Assembly (NCBI GenBank): GCA_007121555.1
Contig: SKKH01000080.1
Location: 1-64,000 of the forward strand
From: Gemmatimonadota bacterium
Lineage (GTDB): Bacteria > Gemmatimonadota > Gemmatimonadetes > Longimicrobiales > Gaopeijiaceae
Length of the DNA stretch: 64,000 bases
Reading direction: 5' to 3'
Shown here: piece after piece, positions 236 through 9,758 of the stretch
How the letters are laid out: the number at the start of each line of letters is the position of its first letter
Position numbering within the stretch: position 1 is the stretch's first letter
Notes under the pieces: generated by a model
What the model was told of the DNA's origin: nothing
Database searches by the model: none
Seen by the model: the letters and a program-made list of their open reading frames with translations, nothing else
Translations under genes and position numbers: made by a program

Positions 236-1114
236 GTGAGTGTTCAGAAGGTAGGAGTGGCCGGTTGCGGCCTCATGGGGAGTGGGATCGCCGAGGTGGC
301 GGCCCGGGCGGGGAAGGACGTCGTCGTGCGGGAGGTGTCGAAGGAGGCGGTGGAGGCCGGGCGAGGCCGGATCGAGGCCTCCCTGACTCGGGCCCTCAAG
401 AGGGAGAAGATTTCGTCTGAAGAACGAGACGAGGTCCTGGAACGAATCTCCTTCACACAGGATCTCGCCGACCTGGCCGATCGGGACCTGGTCATTGAAG
501 CGATCATCGAGGAACTCGAGGCGAAGAACGAACTCTTCGGTACCCTGGATGAGCTCTGTGGCCCGGAGACCATCTTTGCGTCGAACACCTCGTCCCTCAC
601 CATCACGGAGATGGCGGCGGCTGTGAATCGGCCCGACCGGGTGGTGGGCCTTCACTTCTTCAATCCGGTCCCAGTCATGAAGCTGGTGGAGGTGGTCCGC
701 ACCATCGCGACCTCCGAGGAGGCCTTCGACCGCACCTTCGCGTTCGCACGTTCCCTGGGGAAGGAGCCCATTGCCGCCAAGGACAACTCGGGCTTCGTGG
801 TCAACCTCCTCCTGGTGCCCTACATGCTGGATGCCATCCGGCAGCTCGAGCGGGGCGTAGCGTCCATGCGTGACATGGATACCGCCATGGTGCTGGGGTG
901 TGGATATCCCATGGGGCCCTTTACCCTCTGTGACTTCGTGGGCAACGATACGACACTCCGGATCGCCGAGATCATGTTCGAGGAGTACCGGGAGGAGCGA
1001 TATGCGCCGCCCCCGCTACTCAAGCGTCTCGTGGCCATGGGTCGATACGGGAGGAAGTCCGGGAAGGGGTTCTACGACTACTCCGGAGACGAGCCGACGC
1101 CTCTGCCCGTCTGA
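236..1114 (+). CDS. 3-hydroxybutyryl-CoA dehydrogenase
   Basis: This 292-residue cytoplasmic enzyme should interconvert 3-hydroxyacyl-CoA and 3-ketoacyl-CoA with NAD(P). The N-terminal Rossmann motif is GCGLMGSG (residues about 10-17). The catalytic histidine is in GLHFFNPVP (about residue 140). The C-terminal helical domain starts at DNSGFVVN and ends with the family's RKSGKGFYDY. The length matches the stand-alone Hbd/PaaH family rather than the multifunctional FadB. The GTG start at 236 is favoured by GGAGG at 223-227. It follows a thiolase gene and ends at a strong terminator. It could serve butyryl/polyhydroxybutyrate metabolism or beta-oxidation; the sequence does not decide between them. 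Confidence 0.9.
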   Translation: MSVQKVGVAGCGLMGSGIAEVAARAGKDVVVREVSKEAVEAGRGRIEASLTRALKREKISSEERDEVLERISFTQDLADLADRDLVIEAIIEELEAKNELFGTLDELCGPETIFASNTSSLTITEMAAAVNRPDRVVGLHFFNPVPVMKLVEVVRTIATSEEAFDRTFAFARSLGKEPIAAKDNSGFVVNLLLVPYMLDAIRQLERGVASMRDMDTAMVLGCGYPMGPFTLCDFVGNDTTLRIAEIMFEEYREERYAPPPLLKRLVAMGRYGRKSGKGFYDYSGDEPTPLPV

Positions 1115-1137
1115 TCCGGCGTGGGGTCTCGGCCACG

Positions 1138-1185
1138 AAAAAAACGACGACCCCCCGTTTGAATCGGGGGGTCGTCGTTTTTTTT
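1138..1185. terminator. Strong bidirectional intrinsic terminator
   Basis: A perfect 17-bp stem (1141-1157 with 1165-1181) encloses a 7-nt loop. It is flanked by A residues on the left and a T run on the right, so it can stop transcription from both sides. It serves the dehydrogenase gene on the plus strand and the rpsU gene on the minus strand. Confidence 0.9.
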
Positions 1186-1236
1186 CACGGACGCCCCTAG
1201 GACGGCAGGATCTTCACCGCCAGGGGGGGCGAGATG

Positions 1237-1449
1237 TCAGCGCCGCGGCCGCGTGTCCTTCCGCTGGCGCCGGCGTTCACGCCGGATGGCGGCTTCCTTC
1301 TTGCGCTTTCTCTGCGCGCTTGGCTTCTCGTAGAACCGACGCTTCCGAAGCTCAGAATAAAGTCCGGAGCGCTGGACTTTCCGCTTGAACTTGCGAAGGG
1401 CCCGCTCGAGGTTGTCGCCTTCCTGAACGATTACTTCCAAGACAATCAC
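1237..1449 (-). CDS. rpsU: 30S ribosomal protein bS21
   Basis: A 70-residue, very basic protein. It carries the bS21 core ERALRKFKRKVQRSG, then the RKRRFYEKPS segment and an Arg/Lys-rich tail (RKRKKEAAIRRERRRQRK). bS21 sits on the small ribosomal subunit near the anti-Shine-Dalgarno end and helps initiation. The annotated start is GTG at 1449, but AAGGAG lies only 1 nt upstream of it. A TTG at 1440 has better spacing (10 nt) and gives an N-terminus (MEVIVQEGDNLERAL) closer to the family's usual one, so the true start may be three codons downstream. It is monocistronic and ends at the strong terminator at 1138-1185. Confidence 0.92.
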   Translation of the reverse strand: MIVLEVIVQEGDNLERALRKFKRKVQRSGLYSELRKRRFYEKPSAQRKRKKEAAIRRERRRQRKDTRPRR

Positions 1450-1527
1450 TCTCCTTGAACTGCTGCATTGACTCAGGCAACTGGATACTAACCTAGACGG
1501 TAAAGATACCAGCCAGCAGGTCTGGGA

Positions 1528-2373
1528 TCAAGCCTCGGTGGGGTCGGGGAAGAAGCTTCCCTGGACCGCTCCCACCCCTGGCGTCCCCCCTTCGGACCGA
1601 GGCGCCGTCTCTCGATGGAGTGCATGGGTGTAGAGCCGGTACGCTTCCTCGTGCGCCAGGTAATCCTGGGCCCAGATCTCGAAGGTCGGCAGAGGCAGCA
1701 AGGCTTCGATTCGTTCGACCACCATCATGGCGAACTGGAGGCGGTCCCTGGCACCGAAATCGAAGCTCTGTCCATCCAGGATCCGGGTCACGGCGTGCTG
1801 GAAGTCCTCCGGGTCCACGAGGGTGATGAAATGGGCCACCTGGTCGATTCGATAGGAAGCATAGATCGAGCGGAGTTCTCGCAAGGTCCGCCCTTCCACC
1901 GCCTGTTCTTCCGACTCCCATTCTCCGGCCAGCTCCCTCGAGTTCGTTCGGAGCATCTCGTGGAACCACAACCGGAGCCGGGGGGGATCCCGGTCTTCTC
2001 GCTCCCGGGTGTGCAGGGCGGAAGAAAGTAGGCCGGAAAGAAGGGGGCGTCCCAGCCCCCTGGCCTTGCGGTCGATCTCTGCCTCCGAGGCCTCCAGGAA
2101 GATGTCGGCGGTTCGGATCTCCTCTGTTTCCGGGGATCCGTCTCCATCGCTGGGCCGGAAGGAGAAATATCCCTTCCACCGACCTCCGTCACCCTGAAAC
2201 GTGACGAGAAAACAGGCCCAGGACTCTCCGTTGCGGTCGAGAAAGCCAACGGAGCGGCGATGATGTCGATCGGAGGTCACAGAAGATCCGAAGCTGGCGG
2301 CGAGGGTTGGGTCCGGCCACCGGTGAGACGAGGCCTTTGGGAGAAAGATGTCCGGCCCGAACGGAGGAGGCAA
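1528..2373 (-). CDS. Uncharacterised two-domain protein (order B-A), paralogue of the 3682 and 5067 genes
   Basis: I do not recognise a family for this 281-residue, probably cytoplasmic protein: no signal peptide or membrane segment. It can be divided by comparison with two neighbours. Domain B (about residues 52-120) contains RWKGYFSF and an EEIRTADIFLE stretch. Domain A (about 165-250) contains LRSIYASY, a helical middle, and the hallmark LLPLPTFEIWAQDY. The gene at 3682 has the same two domains in the opposite order and the gene at 5067 has only domain A. The start is uncertain: the frame opens with TTG at 2373 without a clear ribosome site. Function is unknown; the local clustering of paralogues is the only clue. 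Confidence 0.6.
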   Translation of the reverse strand: MPPPFGPDIFLPKASSHRWPDPTLAASFGSSVTSDRHHRRSVGFLDRNGESWACFLVTFQGDGGRWKGYFSFRPSDGDGSPETEEIRTADIFLEASEAEIDRKARGLGRPLLSGLLSSALHTREREDRDPPRLRLWFHEMLRTNSRELAGEWESEEQAVEGRTLRELRSIYASYRIDQVAHFITLVDPEDFQHAVTRILDGQSFDFGARDRLQFAMMVVERIEALLPLPTFEIWAQDYLAHEEAYRLYTHALHRETAPRSEGGTPGVGAVQGSFFPDPTEA

Positions 2374-2725
2374 GGAAGGAATCTCTCTTGCGATCCCTGG
2401 AATCCCTGGGTTATGCTGGTCGTCCTCCCGTGCGGGGTGGCACCCGGTCGGGAGGATGGAAGTGACAAGTCAAACAAGAAAGAGCCCCCGGCTGGCAACC
2501 GGAGGCTCTCCTGAATGACGCGGACCTGACGAGCCCGGGACATTCCTCAATTGGCGTTGAGGGAAGTTTACGGTGCGTTCGATCCGGGTGTCAAGGGGAG
2601 CGTGTATCCGGGAGTGACTCTCCGGGGCTCCACCTCGACGCTCCGGTTCCTCTCCCGGGAGGGCCGGATCCGTCATACGGGGGAGTCGGTTGTCCGGCCT
2701 CCGGGCCTGAAACGGAGGTGGACGG
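2374..2725. other. Intergenic region with an imperfect hairpin
   Basis: This 352-bp gap separates two divergently oriented uncharacterised genes. It contains one hairpin at 2482-2508 (GAGCCCCCGG paired with CCGGAGGCTC, one mismatch, 7-nt loop) with only a weak T-rich stretch on the minus-strand side. No gene is known to end there, so a terminator role is doubtful. A clear ribosome site for the downstream gene is GGAGG at 2714-2718. I see no RNA gene or repeat. Confidence 0.4.
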
Positions 2726-3682
2726 ATGCACCCTGTCACCCGGTCGGACCTCGATCTGCGGACTGAGCCGATCCTGAGTCCGTCCTCCCAGATTGAGCTC
2801 ACTCGTGCGATCGTGCGCTACGAGCCGAGCGGAGTCAGGAGTGGTCCCGGAGGCCTCCTCGAGGATCTCGGCCTGGGTGTGGTTCTCTCCGAGACCTCCG
2901 ACGGTTCCCGGGAAATGCTGGACCTGGGCAGCGGTCGCCGTTCGACCATGGTCCTCCAGGGACCTCTCGTGATCCTGGGGTGGGTCTTCTCCGCAACGCT
3001 CTCAAGACTCCTCCGCCACGGGATCGAAGAGGAGGAGGTGCTTCGGCGCATCACCGTTCCCATGGCCACCAGGGTCCTGGGGGAGGCCGGCTTCAATTCC
3101 CACACGCGCCCCCTCCTCCTCCGGCTCGGTTTCCGGGACCTGGCCCGGGATCTGGATCCCCACGAGGGCGCGGCCATTCGGTTCCTTCTCCCTGGTGGTG
3201 GGATCGCTCGGCTCCACCTGGACTACGACCACGCCGTGGTGGGCGTCGGAATCCCGGACGTCCGATTCACCGACGTTCTTGTGGACTCGCTCGAGGCGGC
3301 CTTTCCTGATGTGGGGATCCTCCATGAGCAGGCCATCGAGGGGTCCGGAGTTCGTACCTGTCGCCTTCCTTTCCGACTTCCGGAGAACCTGAGGGCGGCG
3401 CGCGCTCTGCTGGCCCGGATTCGGAGGGGAAGCCTTCACCTCCTGGCTCGCTTCGAACCGGAACGCCATCGAGCCGTGCAGGATCAACTCGAGGTGTTCG
3501 GCGCGCGCGACTCCCTGGCTCGCCTCGCGGAGAGTGTCGGACCGGTCGACCTTGCCCGTGCGGCCTCGTCTTCCGGCTTACGTCGGCCCCATCCCCTCGA
3601 GTCGAGCTCGGGCGCGTCTTCGGGCTCTCAGACCGATGGAGCCTGGCCACCCGCCGCTCTGACGAGCCAGAGGGTCCACTGA
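2726..3682 (+). CDS. Uncharacterised protein, first gene of a two-gene operon
   Basis: A 318-residue protein with no family I can name. It looks globular and cytoplasmic: no signal peptide, no credible membrane span. It has a mixed alpha/beta middle (for example the LDYDHAVVGVGIPDVRF stretch around residues 165-185) and a disordered Ser/Pro-rich C-terminal 40 residues. The ATG at 2726 is well supported by GGAGG 7 nt upstream. The stop codon shares one base with the start of the next gene (TGATG at 3680-3684), so the two are translationally coupled and probably work together. The partner carries the A and B domains described for the 1528 gene, which links this protein to that local family. Confidence 0.6.
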   Translation: MHPVTRSDLDLRTEPILSPSSQIELTRAIVRYEPSGVRSGPGGLLEDLGLGVVLSETSDGSREMLDLGSGRRSTMVLQGPLVILGWVFSATLSRLLRHGIEEEEVLRRITVPMATRVLGEAGFNSHTRPLLLRLGFRDLARDLDPHEGAAIRFLLPGGGIARLHLDYDHAVVGVGIPDVRFTDVLVDSLEAAFPDVGILHEQAIEGSGVRTCRLPFRLPENLRAARALLARIRRGSLHLLARFEPERHRAVQDQLEVFGARDSLARLAESVGPVDLARAASSSGLRRPHPLESSSGASSGSQTDGAWPPAALTSQRVH

Positions 3683-4323
3683 TGTCCCCTGACCAGCAGG
3701 CCAGCATCGATCCAGCTTCTCCGACCGACCTGTCCCGCTCGACGGGCCGGAGAGGGCGCGGACTGTCTCCGAATCATCCGCCACCTTCTCCTCCCGGCCT
3801 CGTGGGTCTCGAGAGCTTGTACGAGAGGTACTGCGACCGACAGGCGAGAGAGCTCCTGCAATTGATCCCCAGGGAAGGGTTGAGGGCCCTGGCTCAGCGG
3901 GCGCGGCGTGAATGGGCCCCCGAGGAGGATCCAGAGAACGGGATTGCCGACCCTCTGGCTCGGGCCGTCCGGATGGCTCGGCGTCTCCTGCCTCTCCCTC
4001 CCTACCCGGTCTGGATACGGGCGTACGTGGAGGACCGTGCGCCCTTTCTGGAGGCTCTGGGGATCGAGGACTCGCCTGTGAGACGGGAGCCGGTCCTGGT
4101 CGAAGTTCGGTCACTTCCCGGCGGCTGGACCTCGGGCCTTCATCTCTACAAGCGAGAGGGTGAGTGGAGGGGCTTCCTTCAATTCACCCGAGGGTTTGGG
4201 AGGGGTGAGGTGCACCGGACTGCCGAAATCTTCCGGGGAGGGGCACCGAGGGAGATCCGACAGAGATTCAGGGAGTACCGTCCGGCCACCCTGGAGGCCT
4301 TCCTCCGGTCAATTCGTCCTTGA
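3682..4323 (+). CDS. Uncharacterised two-domain protein (order A-B), paralogue of the 1528 and 5067 genes
   Basis: A 213-residue protein of unknown function. After a disordered Ser/Pro-rich leader (residues 1-40) comes domain A (about 43-118: LESLYERYC, then LLPLPPYPVWIRAY). Domain B follows (about 155-210: EWRGFLQF, then HRTAEIF and an EIRQRF helix). The same two domains occur in reverse order in the protein encoded at 1528-2373, and domain A alone in the one at 5067-5435. The start overlaps the preceding gene's stop by one base, with AGAGGG as a ribosome site just upstream. No membrane segment or catalytic motif is obvious. Confidence 0.6.
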   Translation: MSPDQQASIDPASPTDLSRSTGRRGRGLSPNHPPPSPPGLVGLESLYERYCDRQARELLQLIPREGLRALAQRARREWAPEEDPENGIADPLARAVRMARRLLPLPPYPVWIRAYVEDRAPFLEALGIEDSPVRREPVLVEVRSLPGGWTSGLHLYKREGEWRGFLQFTRGFGRGEVHRTAEIFRGGAPREIRQRFREYRPATLEAFLRSIRP

Positions 4324-4686
4324 GTCGGGATGGATCCGTTTTTTTGAATTCTGCATCCAGACCGAGGCCGTGCTTTTCATAAACTGGTGGCCGGAAGAGG
4401 GTGTGGCTACTGGTATTCTCCGATGAAAATTTGAAAAAAAATCCCAGGTAACAATTCCGGAACACCTGATTTCGGTTTTTCGTGGGCATCCTAAGTCTCT
4501 GAGGCACAATGGCTTAGGGGATCGCAAGTGGTGGGGCGGATATGGAGACTCAGCCTTGCGTCCGATGAAATCGAGGCGTATCATCGTGATCACCTCATGA
4601 CGGGGGGCAACGTGTTGAGGGTCTGACTGGACGCCCTGGAACCCATTGCTCGCCTACCCCACGTACACACCCAACCCTCCCCGACA
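4324..4686. other. AT-richer intergenic region with two inverted repeats
   Basis: This 363-bp gap has no convincing gene. Roughly 4420-4500 is much richer in A and T than its surroundings, with an A8 run. It contains two inverted repeats: CAGGT/ACCTG arms around 4444-4468, and CCTAAG/CTTAGG arms around 4490-4518. It could be a promoter with a structured leader, or a small RNA; nothing in the sequence decides this. Confidence 0.35.
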
Positions 4687-4905
4687 TTGCCTGAATCGCC
4701 CCATTGGGAGACCTGCTCCGTCCAACTGAACGTGCGGCTACCGCGAGAGCTGGCGGCCCGGGCGGAGAAGGTCCAGGAAACAGACCCGGAGTTCCTCAGC
4801 CGTATCGTGCTATACGGGCTGACTCGCCAATCCATCTATCAGCAGCTTCAGGAGCAGCGCGCCGGAGCTGAGGGCGCCTCCGTTGACCATCCCGTGACTC
4901 GCTGA
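4687..4905 (+). CDS. Possible ribbon-helix-helix (CopG-like) DNA-binding protein
   Basis: A 72-residue frame whose residues 12-55 resemble the ribbon-helix-helix fold. There is a short beta strand (VQLNVRLP), a first amphipathic helix (RELAARAEKVQE), a turn, then a second helix (EFLSRIVLYGLTRQSIYQQL). Such proteins usually dimerise and bind operators, often as autoregulators. The frame opens with TTG and I see no good ribosome site, so both the start and the reality of the gene are uncertain. It lies between two members of the local A-domain family and could regulate them; that is inference from position only. Confidence 0.4.
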   Translation: MPESPHWETCSVQLNVRLPRELAARAEKVQETDPEFLSRIVLYGLTRQSIYQQLQEQRAGAEGASVDHPVTR

Positions 4906-5066
4906 AACCCTGGGTCGGGAGGCTGTGGACCCTGACGCGTCCGGTTCTCCTCTGCACCCCTGCCTCTTGACGTAGCCTGGGCGGGGAGAAAGGTTCGAGA
5001 GAATATCGCCCTCCCGGGTCGAAAAGGGCTCTGGAGGGAAAAGACCGTCTTTCCCCGGGGTGGGAC

Positions 5067-5435
5067 TTGAGTCAATCCGGATCCACCGGTGGCCATGGCC
5101 AACCGGCGGTGTCCCAGTCGGCCGTCCTCCGAGCCAAGTACCTCGACTACTGCTCGGCCAGGGTGGCCGAGGTCCTCCTTGGCCTGACCGCCGACGAGAT
5201 CTACCTGCTGGCCCAGGAGGCGGCTCGCACCGCCTCCGGCCCTCTGGAGTCCTTCTCGTACGATGAAGTCGTTCGTCTGGCCACCGCACGCCTCTCCGAA
5301 AAGCTGTCCCTTCCGGCCTTCGAGACCTGGGCTGAGGCGTACCGGGAAGATCCGGAGCGATTCGACCGGGAACTGATCGGACTCTGGGAGTCGGAGCTCC
5401 GCGCCTCTCCCGATTCAGGGGGGTCCGGGGGATAG
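5067..5435 (+). CDS. Uncharacterised single-domain (A) protein, paralogue of the 1528 and 3682 genes
   Basis: A 122-residue protein containing only domain A of the local family. LRAKYLDYC is at residues 21-29, an acidic helical middle follows (TADEIYLLAQEAA), and the hallmark KLSLPAFETWAEAY is at 79-92. This matches LLPLPTFEIWAQDY and LLPLPPYPVWIRAY in the two neighbours. N- and C-terminal tails are Gly/Ser-rich. The frame opens with TTG at 5067 after a G-rich stretch; a GTG at 5109 is an alternative. The domain is predicted mainly helical and cytoplasmic. Function unknown. Confidence 0.6.
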   Translation: MSQSGSTGGHGQPAVSQSAVLRAKYLDYCSARVAEVLLGLTADEIYLLAQEAARTASGPLESFSYDEVVRLATARLSEKLSLPAFETWAEAYREDPERFDRELIGLWESELRASPDSGGSGG

Positions 5436-5642
5436 GATCGCTACGACCAGGGAACTGAGGCCTCCACTCCTCGCCGAAGAGACCTCTTGCCGCTGTGGTG
5501 GCGTGATCACCGTTCCTCGAGCGCCTGGACAGGGCGGCTGGGGTCAGGTTCGGTCACTGGTTTCACGGCCCGGACCGCCACGAAGGCGGCACCGAGTGAA
5601 GTTTTCCCTGTGCGTAGGAGCGCGCTTCTCCCAGGCTTTCGC

Positions 5643-5993
5643 TCAGAATACGAGCACCTTCTCGGCCCAGATGGTCCAGTCGGCCAGCTCGTCCAGCGTG
5701 CTTCGTTCGAGTCCCTCGGCCAGCTCCCCGTCGGAGAGTCCCCGGGCGTCCATGCAGGTGCTGCACACGCCCACCTCGACGTCCCGCGACCGAGCGATCT
5801 TGAGCATCCGTTCCAGATTGTAGTAGCCCTTGGGAACGTCCTGGCCACGCTTGGCGCAGAGGGCCGCGTCACCCTGGAGGAAGAGCCTCACCTCCTGATC
5901 GTCCTTGCCGCTCAGTGCGTTCGCGAGTCGCAGGGCGTTGAAGGCGTGCTCGGTGCCGTACGGAGGGTGATTCACGATGAAGAGGGTTTTCAC
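5643..5993 (-). CDS. DsrE/DsrF-like sulfur-relay family protein
   Basis: A 116-residue protein of the DsrE/YchN fold. It has an N-terminal beta strand (TLFIVNHPPYG), FNALRLANAL, then VRLFLQGDAALCAKRG and a C-terminal GVCSTCMDARGL segment. Cysteines at about 46, 77 and 80 are placed where this family carries persulfide-accepting or structural cysteines. Members relay sulfane sulfur or act in small-molecule sulfur handling in the cytoplasm. The GTG start at 5993 overlaps the transporter stop upstream (GTGA), with AAAGGA in front, so it is the last gene of a three-gene operon led by an ArsR-rhodanese regulator. The operon context supports a sulfur or persulfide role; the substrate is unknown. 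Confidence 0.75.
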   Translation of the reverse strand: MKTLFIVNHPPYGTEHAFNALRLANALSGKDDQEVRLFLQGDAALCAKRGQDVPKGYYNLERMLKIARSRDVEVGVCSTCMDARGLSDGELAEGLERSTLDELADWTIWAEKVLVF

Positions 5994-7327
5994 GGGTGGT
6001 TCCTTTCGGTTGGAGTGGTGCCACGTTCTTCGACGGTGGGGCGGGAGTCCGGGGGGCTGGCACTGCCGTTCGATCCGTCCTTTCCTGGAAGGGTTTCGGG
6101 CATCCGCATCCAGACGAGAGCAGTGGAGAGCAGGGCCAGGAGTCCCCCGGCCAGAATGGCCGGAGCGATCCCGAGAAGGTCCGCCAGGATGCCGGCCACA
6201 ATGGCGCCGAACGCGTAGCCGGAGTCCCGCCAGAGTCGGTACACCCCCACCGCCGACCCCCGCCAGGCGGGGTGGGCCACATCGGCTACGGAGGCGAGCA
6301 GCGTGGGATAGACCAGGGCGGTTCCGGCTCCCAGGAGGGCGCTGCCCGCGAACCAGACCCAGAACCCACCGCCGGCGGCCACGATGAAGAGCGCCAACGC
6401 CTGAAGGAGCATTCCCGCCACAATGAGTGGCTTGCGACCCAGGCGATCCGAGAGGCCCCCGGTCCAGAGCTGAAGGATCCCCCACAACGCCGGATAGATG
6501 AAGGTGAGGATTCCGATCTTGCTCACCGGGAGTCCCCCCGCGGCGAAGAAGAGGGGGAAAAGACCCCAGGCGAGGCCGTCCTTGAAGTTCGTCACCAACC
6601 CCGCCTGGCTGGCCCCGAAGAGGGCGGGGTGGCGCCAGCTCGCCATGGCGAAGATCTCGCGTCCGCTCAGGGTGCCCCCCATCGTGGAATCCTCCGAACT
6701 CTGACCGTGGTCCCGGATCTCGAGGGCCACGTGTTCGCTGGTCTCACGCACGAAGAGCACGGTGAGCCCCAGGCCCAGAGCCACGAAGGCGATCCCCATG
6801 TAGAAGGGTTCGGGGCGAAGGCCGAAGGCTTCGGCCACGTACCCCGTGCCCAGGGCGGCCAGGGCCACCGCCAGGTACCCCGCGAACTCGTTCAGGCCCA
6901 TGGCGAGCCCGCGAGCCCTGGGGCCCACCAGGTCGATCTTCATGATCACCGTCGTGGACCAGGCGAGGCCCTGGTTCACGCCCAGCAGCACGTTGGCGAA
7001 GACGATCCAGGACCATGACGGTGCCCACATGAGGAGGAAGGGCACGGGGATCCCGAAGAGCCATCCGGCCAGAAGCACCTTCTTTCGACCGAACAGGTCC
7101 CCCAGGCGACCCGCGAAGAAGTTCGTGCCCGCCTTCACGAACCCGAAGGTCACGATGAAGGAGAGGATGGCCCCCCGGGCCACCATCCCGAAGTCTTCTT
7201 CGGCGATGAGTGGAAGGACCGTCCTCTCGAGCCCCACCATGGCGCCCACGAAGGCGTTGACGAGGACGAGCAGCCAGAACTGCTTCCAGTTCTCCCGCAG
7301 ACCGAGGCGGACGCCCGTCTCGCTCAC
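5990..7327 (-). CDS. Major facilitator superfamily transporter
   Basis: A 445-residue inner-membrane protein with about 12 hydrophobic segments. The loop after the second helix reads GRLGDLFGRKK and the equivalent loop in the second half reads GGLSDRLGRKP, both typical of MFS drug/metabolite transporters. A hydrophilic central loop (about 205-235) splits the halves, and the C-terminal 35 residues are hydrophilic. The GTG start overlaps the stop of the upstream ArsR-rhodanese gene by 4 bp, and its own stop overlaps the DsrE-like gene by 4 bp. The substrate is not evident. Its neighbours suggest export or import of a sulfur or metalloid compound, but that is inferred. Confidence 0.8.
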   Translation of the reverse strand: MSETGVRLGLRENWKQFWLLVLVNAFVGAMVGLERTVLPLIAEEDFGMVARGAILSFIVTFGFVKAGTNFFAGRLGDLFGRKKVLLAGWLFGIPVPFLLMWAPSWSWIVFANVLLGVNQGLAWSTTVIMKIDLVGPRARGLAMGLNEFAGYLAVALAALGTGYVAEAFGLRPEPFYMGIAFVALGLGLTVLFVRETSEHVALEIRDHGQSSEDSTMGGTLSGREIFAMASWRHPALFGASQAGLVTNFKDGLAWGLFPLFFAAGGLPVSKIGILTFIYPALWGILQLWTGGLSDRLGRKPLIVAGMLLQALALFIVAAGGGFWVWFAGSALLGAGTALVYPTLLASVADVAHPAWRGSAVGVYRLWRDSGYAFGAIVAGILADLLGIAPAILAGGLLALLSTALVWMRMPETLPGKDGSNGSASPPDSRPTVEERGTTPTERNHP

Positions 7328-8010
7328 TCCAGACTCCGCGAAGACTCGCCGGCGGCCACCGGGAATCCCCGGTCTTCCCAGTCCGCCACTCCCTCTTCCA
7401 TCCGGCAGGCCCGAAGACCATGGCTGCGGAGCCGTTCCACCGCCTGGCGGGAGAAGAGGCAGTAGGGCCCTCGGCAGTACGCCACGATCTCCTGGCCTGC
7501 GGGCAGCTCCTGGAGTCGCTGTTCCAGCTCCCCGATGGGGATGGAAACGGCCCCTGGGATGTGCCCTGCGGCGTACTCATCCGGGGGACGGACGTCCAGA
7601 ACGATCACTTCTCCTTCCTGGACTCGCCGGTTCAGGGTCTCCATGCCCACTGCCTCAAGGGCATCCGGATCCTGGTAGAAGTCGCTGACCAGCTCGCGAA
7701 CCTCCGCCAGGCTCTCGTGCGCGACGTCCTGAAGGGAACGGACCAGCTTACGGACGCGAGGGCTGGCCAGACGGTAGTAGATCTGCTGGCCATCACGCCG
7801 GGTCCGGACGAGGGATGTGGCCCGGAGCTCTCGGAGGTGGTTGCTGGCGTTGGGCACGCTGAGCCCCGCCTGCTCGGCGAGGGTCTCCACCGGCTTCTCT
7901 CCCTGCGAGAGGAGGTCCAGCAGGAGCAGGCGGGAGCGGCTCGCCAGCACCTTCCCGATGCGGGCGAATCCGTCGAAGAGCTCGATCTTGGGGTTGGTCA
8001 TCAGAGGCAC
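7324..8010 (-). CDS. ArsR-family regulator fused to a rhodanese domain
   Basis: A 228-residue fusion. Residues 12-95 form an ArsR-type winged helix (LLLLDLLSQGEKPVETLAEQ, then SVPNASNHLRELR as recognition helix). Residues about 125-218 form a rhodanese domain with the CDC25/rhodanese active loop CRGPYC (Cys179 nucleophile) after a DVRPPDEYAAGHIPGA stretch. Related fusions are known as sulfur- or redox-responsive repressors whose rhodanese part accepts sulfane sulfur. It heads an operon with an MFS transporter and a DsrE-like protein, presumably its target. A palindromic AT-rich element lies just upstream at 8022-8041. Start either GTG at 8010 or ATG at 8001; neither has a clear ribosome site. 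Confidence 0.85.
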   Translation of the reverse strand: MPLMTNPKIELFDGFARIGKVLASRSRLLLLDLLSQGEKPVETLAEQAGLSVPNASNHLRELRATSLVRTRRDGQQIYYRLASPRVRKLVRSLQDVAHESLAEVRELVSDFYQDPDALEAVGMETLNRRVQEGEVIVLDVRPPDEYAAGHIPGAVSIPIGELEQRLQELPAGQEIVAYCRGPYCLFSRQAVERLRSHGLRACRMEEGVADWEDRGFPVAAGESSRSLE

Positions 8011-8021
8011 GCGACGCTGAG

Positions 8022-8041
8022 TACATACATTAATTCATGAT
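8022..8041 (-). promoter_or_regulatory. Candidate operator/promoter of the ArsR-rhodanese operon
   Basis: CAT-N2-ATTAAT-N2-ATG forms an interrupted palindrome (8024-8039) in an otherwise GC-rich sequence, immediately upstream of the arsR-type gene. ArsR proteins usually bind imperfect AT-rich palindromes overlapping their own promoter. The 13-mer TGAATTAATGTAT inside it (8025-8037, minus strand) recurs exactly at 25867-25879. Confidence 0.5.
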
Positions 8042-8305
8042 ATACTGAAATAATGATCCGGAGCCGCAGTCCCATCAAGACCCCTCAGGTCCTTCGGCAC
8101 GCTGGGCCGGGAATGCCCCTGGTGCCCGGGGTCGTGGCGGGCGTTTCCGTAGGGGGCCGGCCTGGCTGGTGGGGTTACTCCTCAGGACGGCGGTCGCGGC
8201 GGCCGGCGCCGTGGAGTGCGCTGTGCGGCCGCTGGGGCACGGCATCGGAACCGGCCGTGGCGTCCTGTCGTACCACGACCGGACGCTTCCCGCCTGCACA
8301 AGGTC

Positions 8306-9247
8306 ATGTCGATGTTCTGGAAACCGATCGCCACCCGCCCACTCGTCACCCTCGCGGCGTTCTTCTTCACCGCGTCCGCTTCACTCGAGGCGCAGGAGCG
8401 GCTCGATCACCGGAACGACCTCCTGATGAACTCGATCTCAGAAGGCGACTTTCGCGACTACATCTCCGACCACATCCGGGAGGACGACCGCTGGGGACAC
8501 GCGATGCGCATGTTCGGGACCTTCCACAACCACATGCACGAGATGATGATCGTTCTCGCCCGGTACAGGTCCGAGCAGCTCGGTGACGGCCACCGGATCC
8601 CGCAGTTCGACAACCGGATCTCGGGTGGGGAGTGGGGGGACTACAGTTGGAACCTCGAGGCGGACGGCGTGGAGTCACCGTGGAAGGACTTCGTGCAGAT
8701 CACGGAGATCATGCACGACCGGGTGCACCACGCGATGTACAAGTCCGTCGTCTACGACCGGGTGAGCCGGGCCCGGGACGCCGATCTGGACAGGTACGTG
8801 GGCGAGGGCCGTGCGCCCCATGCGTCGGCCGAGGCCGTTCTGCGGACCCACGAGGTGGATACCGGATACGCACCCACGGATCGCTTTCGAGAATTCGTCT
8901 GGCAGTTCACCTTCGAGGACCGGCATTTCCACGCCGCCATGCAGGCGATGATGGTCTTCGACGAGATGCTACACGTCCTGATGTCGGACTGGGCGGCCCA
9001 TGGGGCGGAGAAGGGGGAGGCGGAGTGCCGGCCCCCGGAGTTCGGCGCCCGGATCACGCGGGCAGAGTTCCATGCTTACGCCACCAGCGTCGGATCGTGG
9101 AGCCAGCCGGAGTGGCGGCACCTGGTGCAGGTCGCCGCACTCGTGCACGATCGCATTCACGACATGATCTACCGCGTCATGCTCTACGACGGGGCCGCCC
9201 ACGACCGCGAGGACGAGATCCGCGAGCTTCTGGCCCGGCAGGACTGA
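8306..9247 (+). CDS. Exported histidine-rich protein with four helical repeats
   Basis: A 313-residue protein that starts with a signal peptide (basic start, hydrophobic LVTLAAFFFTASASL, cleavage probably after SLEAQ near residue 30). The mature part holds four related units, each a short strand-like opening followed by an aromatic/His/Met-rich helix: FHNHMHEMM (about 74-81), MHDRVHHAM (136-144), FDEMLHVLM (218-226) and VHDRIHDMI (280-288). Spacing suggests two larger units of about 145 residues, each of two repeats. The HxxxH and H/M-rich helices could bind metal or haem in the periplasm, but I know no family to confirm this. The start is ATG 8306 or ATG 8312; AAGG at 8300-8303 fits the second better. 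It appears monocistronic. Confidence 0.7.
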   Translation: MSMFWKPIATRPLVTLAAFFFTASASLEAQERLDHRNDLLMNSISEGDFRDYISDHIREDDRWGHAMRMFGTFHNHMHEMMIVLARYRSEQLGDGHRIPQFDNRISGGEWGDYSWNLEADGVESPWKDFVQITEIMHDRVHHAMYKSVVYDRVSRARDADLDRYVGEGRAPHASAEAVLRTHEVDTGYAPTDRFREFVWQFTFEDRHFHAAMQAMMVFDEMLHVLMSDWAAHGAEKGEAECRPPEFGARITRAEFHAYATSVGSWSQPEWRHLVQVAALVHDRIHDMIYRVMLYDGAAHDREDEIRELLARQD

Positions 9248-9302
9248 GCCGACCGGGACGGGGACTCGGCGGCGTCATGTCCGCCGCCGAGTCACACCTC
9301 GA

Positions 9303-9758
9303 TCAGAACGGGAGATCGTCGTCGGGCTCGGAGATGTCCGGAGCTCCACTGGAGCCACCCCCGAAGTCGCTCCCGCCACTCCTGCCCATGCCTCCGCCAG
9401 GTCCACCTGAGCCGCCCATGGGGCCGCCCTGGCCCATCATGATCATCTCCAGGACGATGATGTCGGTCCAGTACCGCGTATTCCCCTGGGGGTCCTGACT
9501 TTCGGAGTATTCGATCCGGCCTTCGGCGTAGAGTCGGTCCCCCTTCGTGACGTATTGCTCCACGATATCGGCCAAGCGCCCGAAGAAGGTGAGCCGGTGC
9601 CATTCCGTGCGCTCCTGGAGCTGTCCTGAACGATCCTTGAACTTCTCGTTCGTGGCCAGGGATACCTTCCCCACCTTCGTGCCCGAAGGTGTGGTTCGAA
9701 TTTCCGGATCGGACCCGACGTTTCCAATCAACATGACCTTGTTCAGGGAACGGCTCAT
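9303..9758 (-). CDS. ssb: Single-stranded DNA-binding protein
   Basis: A 151-residue SSB. It has an OB-fold of about 110 residues beginning SLNKVMLIGNVGSDPEIR and including WHRLTFFGRLADI and YAEGRIEYSE, then a Gly-rich flexible linker, then the acidic tip DDDLPF that recruits repair and replication partners. It binds ssDNA as a homotetramer during replication, recombination and repair. The ATG start has AGGAG 9 nt upstream. It is divergent from the enoyl-CoA hydratase gene across about 290 bp in which I see no other gene. Confidence 0.95.
   Translation of the reverse strand: MSRSLNKVMLIGNVGSDPEIRTTPSGTKVGKVSLATNEKFKDRSGQLQERTEWHRLTFFGRLADIVEQYVTKGDRLYAEGRIEYSESQDPQGNTRYWTDIIVLEMIMMGQGGPMGGSGGPGGGMGRSGGSDFGGGSSGAPDISEPDDDLPF

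Follow-up and report, generated by a model that had tools for sequence, protein, structure and literature searches.

Five genes lie between positions 1528 and 5435 of the window, the 64,000-nucleotide stretch of a contig from an uncultured Gemmatimonadota bacterium analysed here. BA is transcribed divergently from P2, and P2 and AB overlap by one base. The three open frames singled out in a preliminary description of this DNA (BA, AB and A) are present where it placed them; its gene list had missed the small gene X. The genes, their domains and the predicted control elements are as follows.

1528..2280, minus strand: BA gene, 250 aa, domain order B then A (open frame; orthologues in most f1 relatives and in f2)
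1600..1887, minus strand: domain A of BA, five helices (hhalign to A of AB and A-alone; AF2 model)
1996..2265, minus strand: domain B of BA, beta-beta-beta-beta-alpha-alpha (hhalign to B of AB; AF2 model)
2345..2374, minus strand: promoter-like pair TTGC / CATCTT before BA (AAGATG and GCAAG conserved on the plus strand in the BA–P2 gap alignment)
2388..2417, plus strand: promoter-like TTGCGA ... TATGCT before P2 (alignment of 62 BA–P2 gaps; relatives keep CTTGC ... GTTATcgT)
2726..3682, plus strand: P2 gene, 318 aa (orthologues in 30/57 relatives; AF2 mean pLDDT 84.5)
3674..3679, plus strand: codons of the C-terminal Val-His of P2 (V/I/A-His end in 74/75 distinct P2 proteins)
3682..4323, plus strand: AB gene, 213 aa, domain order A then B (open frame; orthologues)
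3793..4053, plus strand: domain A of AB (hhalign)
4081..4320, plus strand: domain B of AB, reaching the C terminus (F-L-R-S-x; hhalign and alignment with free-standing B genes)
4492..4516, no strand: 25-bp palindrome TAAGTCTCTG-AGGCA-CAATGGCTTA, the likely operator of the X–A operon (consensus match in X-upstream regions)
4556..4584, plus strand: predicted sigma-70-type promoter TTGCGT-N17-TATCAT for X–A (strict pattern; spacing from the palindrome)
4687..4905, plus strand: X gene, 72 aa, ribbon-helix-helix-like protein (directly upstream of A; hhalign to RHH_1)
5067..5435, plus strand: A gene, domain A alone, 122 aa (open frame; alignment of 33 orthologues)
5118..5402, plus strand: domain A of the A gene (hhalign)

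The most likely start of BA is GTG 2280 rather than TTG 2373, because in the alignment the orthologues begin there.

Domain profiles, each built from about 20–30 orthologues per gene, were compared by hhalign. The assignment of domain A to three genes and of domain B to two was borne out, with E-values of 1e-12 to 1e-17 for A (1.8e-17 for BA against AB, 8e-14 for AB against A-alone and 2.3e-12 for BA against A-alone) and 3e-14 for B (3.2e-14 for BA against AB). The A segments are thus homologous to one another, as are the B segments. Pairings of A with B, and of A or B with X, reached at best E 0.09; outside the families the lowest value was E 0.004 (probability 3%), for A of BA with P2. Domain A of BA conserves Y-x-x-Y, D-Q-x-x-H and LPLP-x-[FY], and the signature originally given for A is present, its better form being Y-x-x-Y ... 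L-x-LP-x-[FY]-x-x-[WF]-x-x-x-[YF]. The orders B-A, A-B and A alone are as described, and their conservation in many genomes excludes both a chance match and an artefact of assembly.

The AF2 model of BA (mean pLDDT 79, pTM 0.48) builds B from strands at residues 7–16, 19–29, 35–43 and 61–63 and helices at 66–74 and 78–95, and A from helices between residues 133 and 224. The linker between the two domains is of low confidence, and with a pTM of 0.48 the model is therefore silent on contact between A and B. That the domains fall in no known family agrees with the database searches. The locus proteins gave nothing above cut-off in Pfam or NCBIfam, nor did the X and P2 alignments or the free B and A genes in Pfam; the best PDB match by sequence had E 0.1; and Foldseek returned no match at E 0.001, whether for BA or P2 in PDB or for P2 among viral models. 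Foldseek matches to dsRNA-binding, Rad52 and YbjN-like structures were too weak to use. Rfam found nothing credible over 1100–5700, and no report on these genes was found in the open-access literature. The protein families appear to be new to the literature; a regulatory operon of small proteins with partner domains is, in general, a familiar kind of system.

Aligned by hhalign with the RHH_1 proteins of relatives, X scored E 2.6e-4 (probability 42%, 22 columns), as good a score being reached by none of 200 column shuffles. Like the ribbon-helix-helix (RHH) regulators (PF01402 RHH_1 and PF03869 Arc), X is small and stands first in an operon with a palindrome before it, and its strand and the helix that follows are in register (CSVQLNVRLPRELAARAEKVQ). 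Unlike them, it has a second helix that does not align, a conserved W-E-T-C-type start and a palindrome placed upstream of the promoter, and it scores below the Pfam cut-offs: X gave no Pfam match above cut-off, and the single match to Arc among 33 members (E 0.0087) falls below it. No member of PF01402 was found in the window's genome. Judged by its sequence, X may be described as RHH-like, a term we prefer to RHH, and it probably binds DNA.

The region upstream of X is itself conserved. The palindrome consensus TAAGTCGTTG-N5-CAACGACTTA, scored with up to 6 mismatches in 20, was matched in 65 of 68 X-upstream regions and in 2 of 340 shuffles; none was found in the BA–P2 or X–A gaps. A strict promoter pattern (TTGxx, 16–18 bases, TAxxxT) occurs upstream of X in 28 of 68 loci (shuffles, 9/340), and the palindrome stands 39–40 bp from the -35 box in 26 of the 27 loci where both were scored. 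Lying upstream of the promoter, the palindrome has the position of an activator site rather than that of a repressor. Many of these genomes carry it elsewhere as well, 1–4 times (e.g. L213, L214, L222 and L223), in copies that lack the X-type promoter spacing; several adjoin sequence reading as tRNA genes and two are next to an MnmG-like gene. The protein that binds the palindrome therefore need not be X: its reader may be a wider or general regulator, or the palindrome may be a repeated element.

The modular nature of A and B is supported by their occurrence outside the five-gene locus. Searching the whole class showed that B also stands as a gene by itself, about 95–110 aa long; the window's own genome has one, at the end of a contig. 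In family f7 B directly follows A in an X>A>B operon (L177, L178 and L187). An A homologue forms the N-terminal part of proteins with a methyltransferase-like domain in families f4–f6 (L224–L229). Pfam PF13649 exceeds its cut-off in L228 (28.5 bits against 27) and matches the other members weakly or not at all, and the glycine motif, as read from the sequence, looks degenerate or unclear in several of them. These proteins share an A homologue with the window's genes; unlike those, they join it to a methyltransferase-like domain, with no adjoining X and no B fusion.

Across 149 genomes of the class, 88 carry both A and B, 10 A only, 12 B only and 39 neither, counts that are not independent of phylogeny and whose significance is inflated by relatedness. 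BA forms one clade and AB one clade in both the A and the B domain trees. The two fused kinds group together against all others in the A tree (99/97); in the B tree, B of AB lies apart from B of BA, and their union is not rejected (AU test, p 0.36). Either one ancestral pair with permuted order or two fusions is therefore possible. Circular permutation and independent fusions could each account for the proposed shuffling of domain order.

Several neighbourhoods of these genes were observed in passing. From a reading of conserved neighbours, free-standing B of the window's family (L181, L183, L184, L186, L190 and L196) adjoins an ABC-type ATP-binding protein and a permease and is near molybdopterin/cytochrome genes. 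In family f4 (L224, L225 and L229) the neighbours of free B, named by reading, are a Rho-like gene and one for a conserved protein some 370 aa long; the A-methyltransferase gene is about 7 kb away. In one genome of family f9, genes reading as LigD and Ku adjoin the X–A pair (L180:6394-9877).

By the established gene-fusion argument, proteins that are encoded separately and also occur fused are taken to associate. Because A and B are fused in both orders, are separate genes of one operon in f7 and co-occur, we infer that they are partner domains. The earlier suggestion that each of the two acts on the other, or both on a shared partner, gains support, at this inferential level, from the fusion in both orders and the co-occurrence. 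Taken with X, which has a control region of its own, they look like parts of a regulatory module. The reading we favour, at somewhat less than even chances, is of a vertically inherited, Gemmatimonadota-specific regulatory module of partner domains A and B run with X, of which BA and AB would be covalent versions. Its core would be the X>A operon, in which the small, RHH-like and probably DNA-binding X is accompanied by A as its obligate partner gene, and free B would be the second partner of A. A and B would bind each other. The window's family would have made this pairing covalent too, in the divergent BA and in AB, the latter on the same transcript as P2, and the fusions would then be built-in or competing versions of the A–B pair. 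X would tie the module to transcription, possibly via the palindrome at its own promoter. The occurrence of the pair free, adjacent and fused both ways lets one ask, as in a natural experiment, if a domain–domain contact depends on order. The cell biology of the Gemmatimonadota, a phylum abundant in soils and sediments of which few members have been cultured, could well be approached through this core locus of five genes, with its three orphan families and a control region that is both rigid and conserved.

The fusions might instead only fix stoichiometry, with A and B making no mutual contact and each serving as an adaptor for a common third partner such as X, P2 or a core machine. Domain order and linker would then not matter, and the pairing of A with a methyltransferase-like domain in f4–f6 suits a generic adaptor, as do the other chromosomal contexts of free B. 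The X>A>B operon and the co-occurrence of A and B are, however, more simply read as partnership, and we consider the adaptor explanation possible but doubtful.

What had been called a local family is in fact spread class-wide. Our survey covered 86 distinct Gemmatimonadota loci. All five genes stand in the arrangement BA< >P2>AB>X>A in 46 of them; 14 further loci have the same arrangement minus AB, and 6, mostly of family f2, have BA< >X>A. Most of the remainder are cut by contig ends or are without BA. X lies directly before A in 74/74 loci and BA is divergent from P2 in 66/66; the operon sought in relatives for the gene at 2726 was found, P2 being followed by AB in 56/56 loci. Records titled Gammaproteobacteria and Gemmatimonas phototrophica (L101 and L143) also carry the locus; for L101 above all, a contig out of place or a wrongly labelled MAG is the probable cause.

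The 46 five-gene loci are nearly always found between rpsU and ssb/recF/gyrB, the order in the window's family being HADH> <S21 [BA P2 AB X A] <SSB ECH> RecF> DciA-like> GyrB>. In most relatives ssb closely follows A; the window has an insertion of about 3.9 kb here (5435–9303), with open frames that include 5990–7327 and 7324–8010, both on the minus strand. The fixed neighbourhood of S21, SSB, RecF, DciA-like and GyrB genes would suit a role in replication, repair or the nucleoid, with X and A acting on DNA alongside the products of ssb, recF, dciA-like and gyrB. Yet the search around X–A in families f7 and f9 found none of them, and slow rearrangement alone may explain why they stay together in the window's family. 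Proximity to the replication origin was rejected, dnaA lying about 0.7 and 0.5 Mb from the locus in two closed genomes. We judge a replication or repair role unlikely.

Of 75 distinct P2 proteins, 74 end in His, the residue before it being V (61), I (11) or A (2). This terminal motif sits 8–39 residues past the conserved core; the P2 model is confident to about residue 266, after which the tail is disordered. The V/I/A-His end is present with or without AB downstream, which points to its being kept by selection on the protein and not by the overlap with AB, and the terminus looks like a C-terminal docking motif. Within the regulatory module that we favour, P2 would be a client or effector docking by its disordered tail with the terminal Val-His, a sharp and testable prediction. 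We put forward more tentatively still the elaboration that A and B form a circuit whose free, adjacent, B-A and A-B versions compete around the RHH-like protein, and to which P2 might be recruited via a previously undescribed kind of C-terminal Val-His motif.

P2 could also be an enzyme, with the A and B proteins as its regulatory subunits. Residues D138, D142 and D144 are invariant and H146 and E147 nearly so (GFRD...RDxDxHE), an acidic and His cluster that is accompanied by invariant Arg residues, and A is fused elsewhere to a methyltransferase-like domain. Nonetheless P2 matched no enzyme family or fold, its searches comprising Pfam, including a scan of the alignment, PDB by sequence, and Foldseek against PDB and viral models, and it is absent from nearly all relatives outside the window's family although X–A is found there; an enzymatic P2 regulated by A and B thus seems improbable. 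A weak resemblance was seen to the YbjN or type III secretion chaperone-like fold (best Foldseek E 0.056, probability 0.66, rmsd 8 Å), with YbjN chains at ranks 5, 10, 15 and 21. The C-terminal part of the P2 model shares its order alpha-beta-beta-beta-alpha-beta-beta-alpha; in contrast to YbjN proteins, P2 has a TM-score of 0.32 to the target and no sequence similarity, and we make no claim of membership.

That X–A is a type II toxin–antitoxin pair, with BA and AB as toxin relatives, is very improbable: such operons do share with the locus a small RHH-like gene directly upstream of a second small gene, but the X–A genes are spaced (a gap of mostly about 50–200 bp, 161 bp in the window, without overlap), the locus keeps a core chromosomal place with synteny over 86 loci rather than a mobile or patchy one, the partner domain is fused to others, BA was found in no phages, plasmids or viral contigs and A in no viral contigs, and no defence library was matched. 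A known anti-phage defence system was rejected likewise, none of the five window proteins matching a PADLOC model, and on the evidence of synteny, gene spacing, distribution and library searches the toxin–antitoxin, defence and mobile-element readings all fail.

Finally, the leader of P2 was examined for terminators. The window's P2 leader folds no better than shuffles, and no terminator faces BA in the BA–P2 gaps of 68 loci. An intrinsic terminator facing P2 is present in 19 of 68 relatives (e.g. L061, L073, L086 and L104) and in 1 of 340 shuffles, which suggests transcription attenuation of the P2–AB operon in that part of the family, the window not included.
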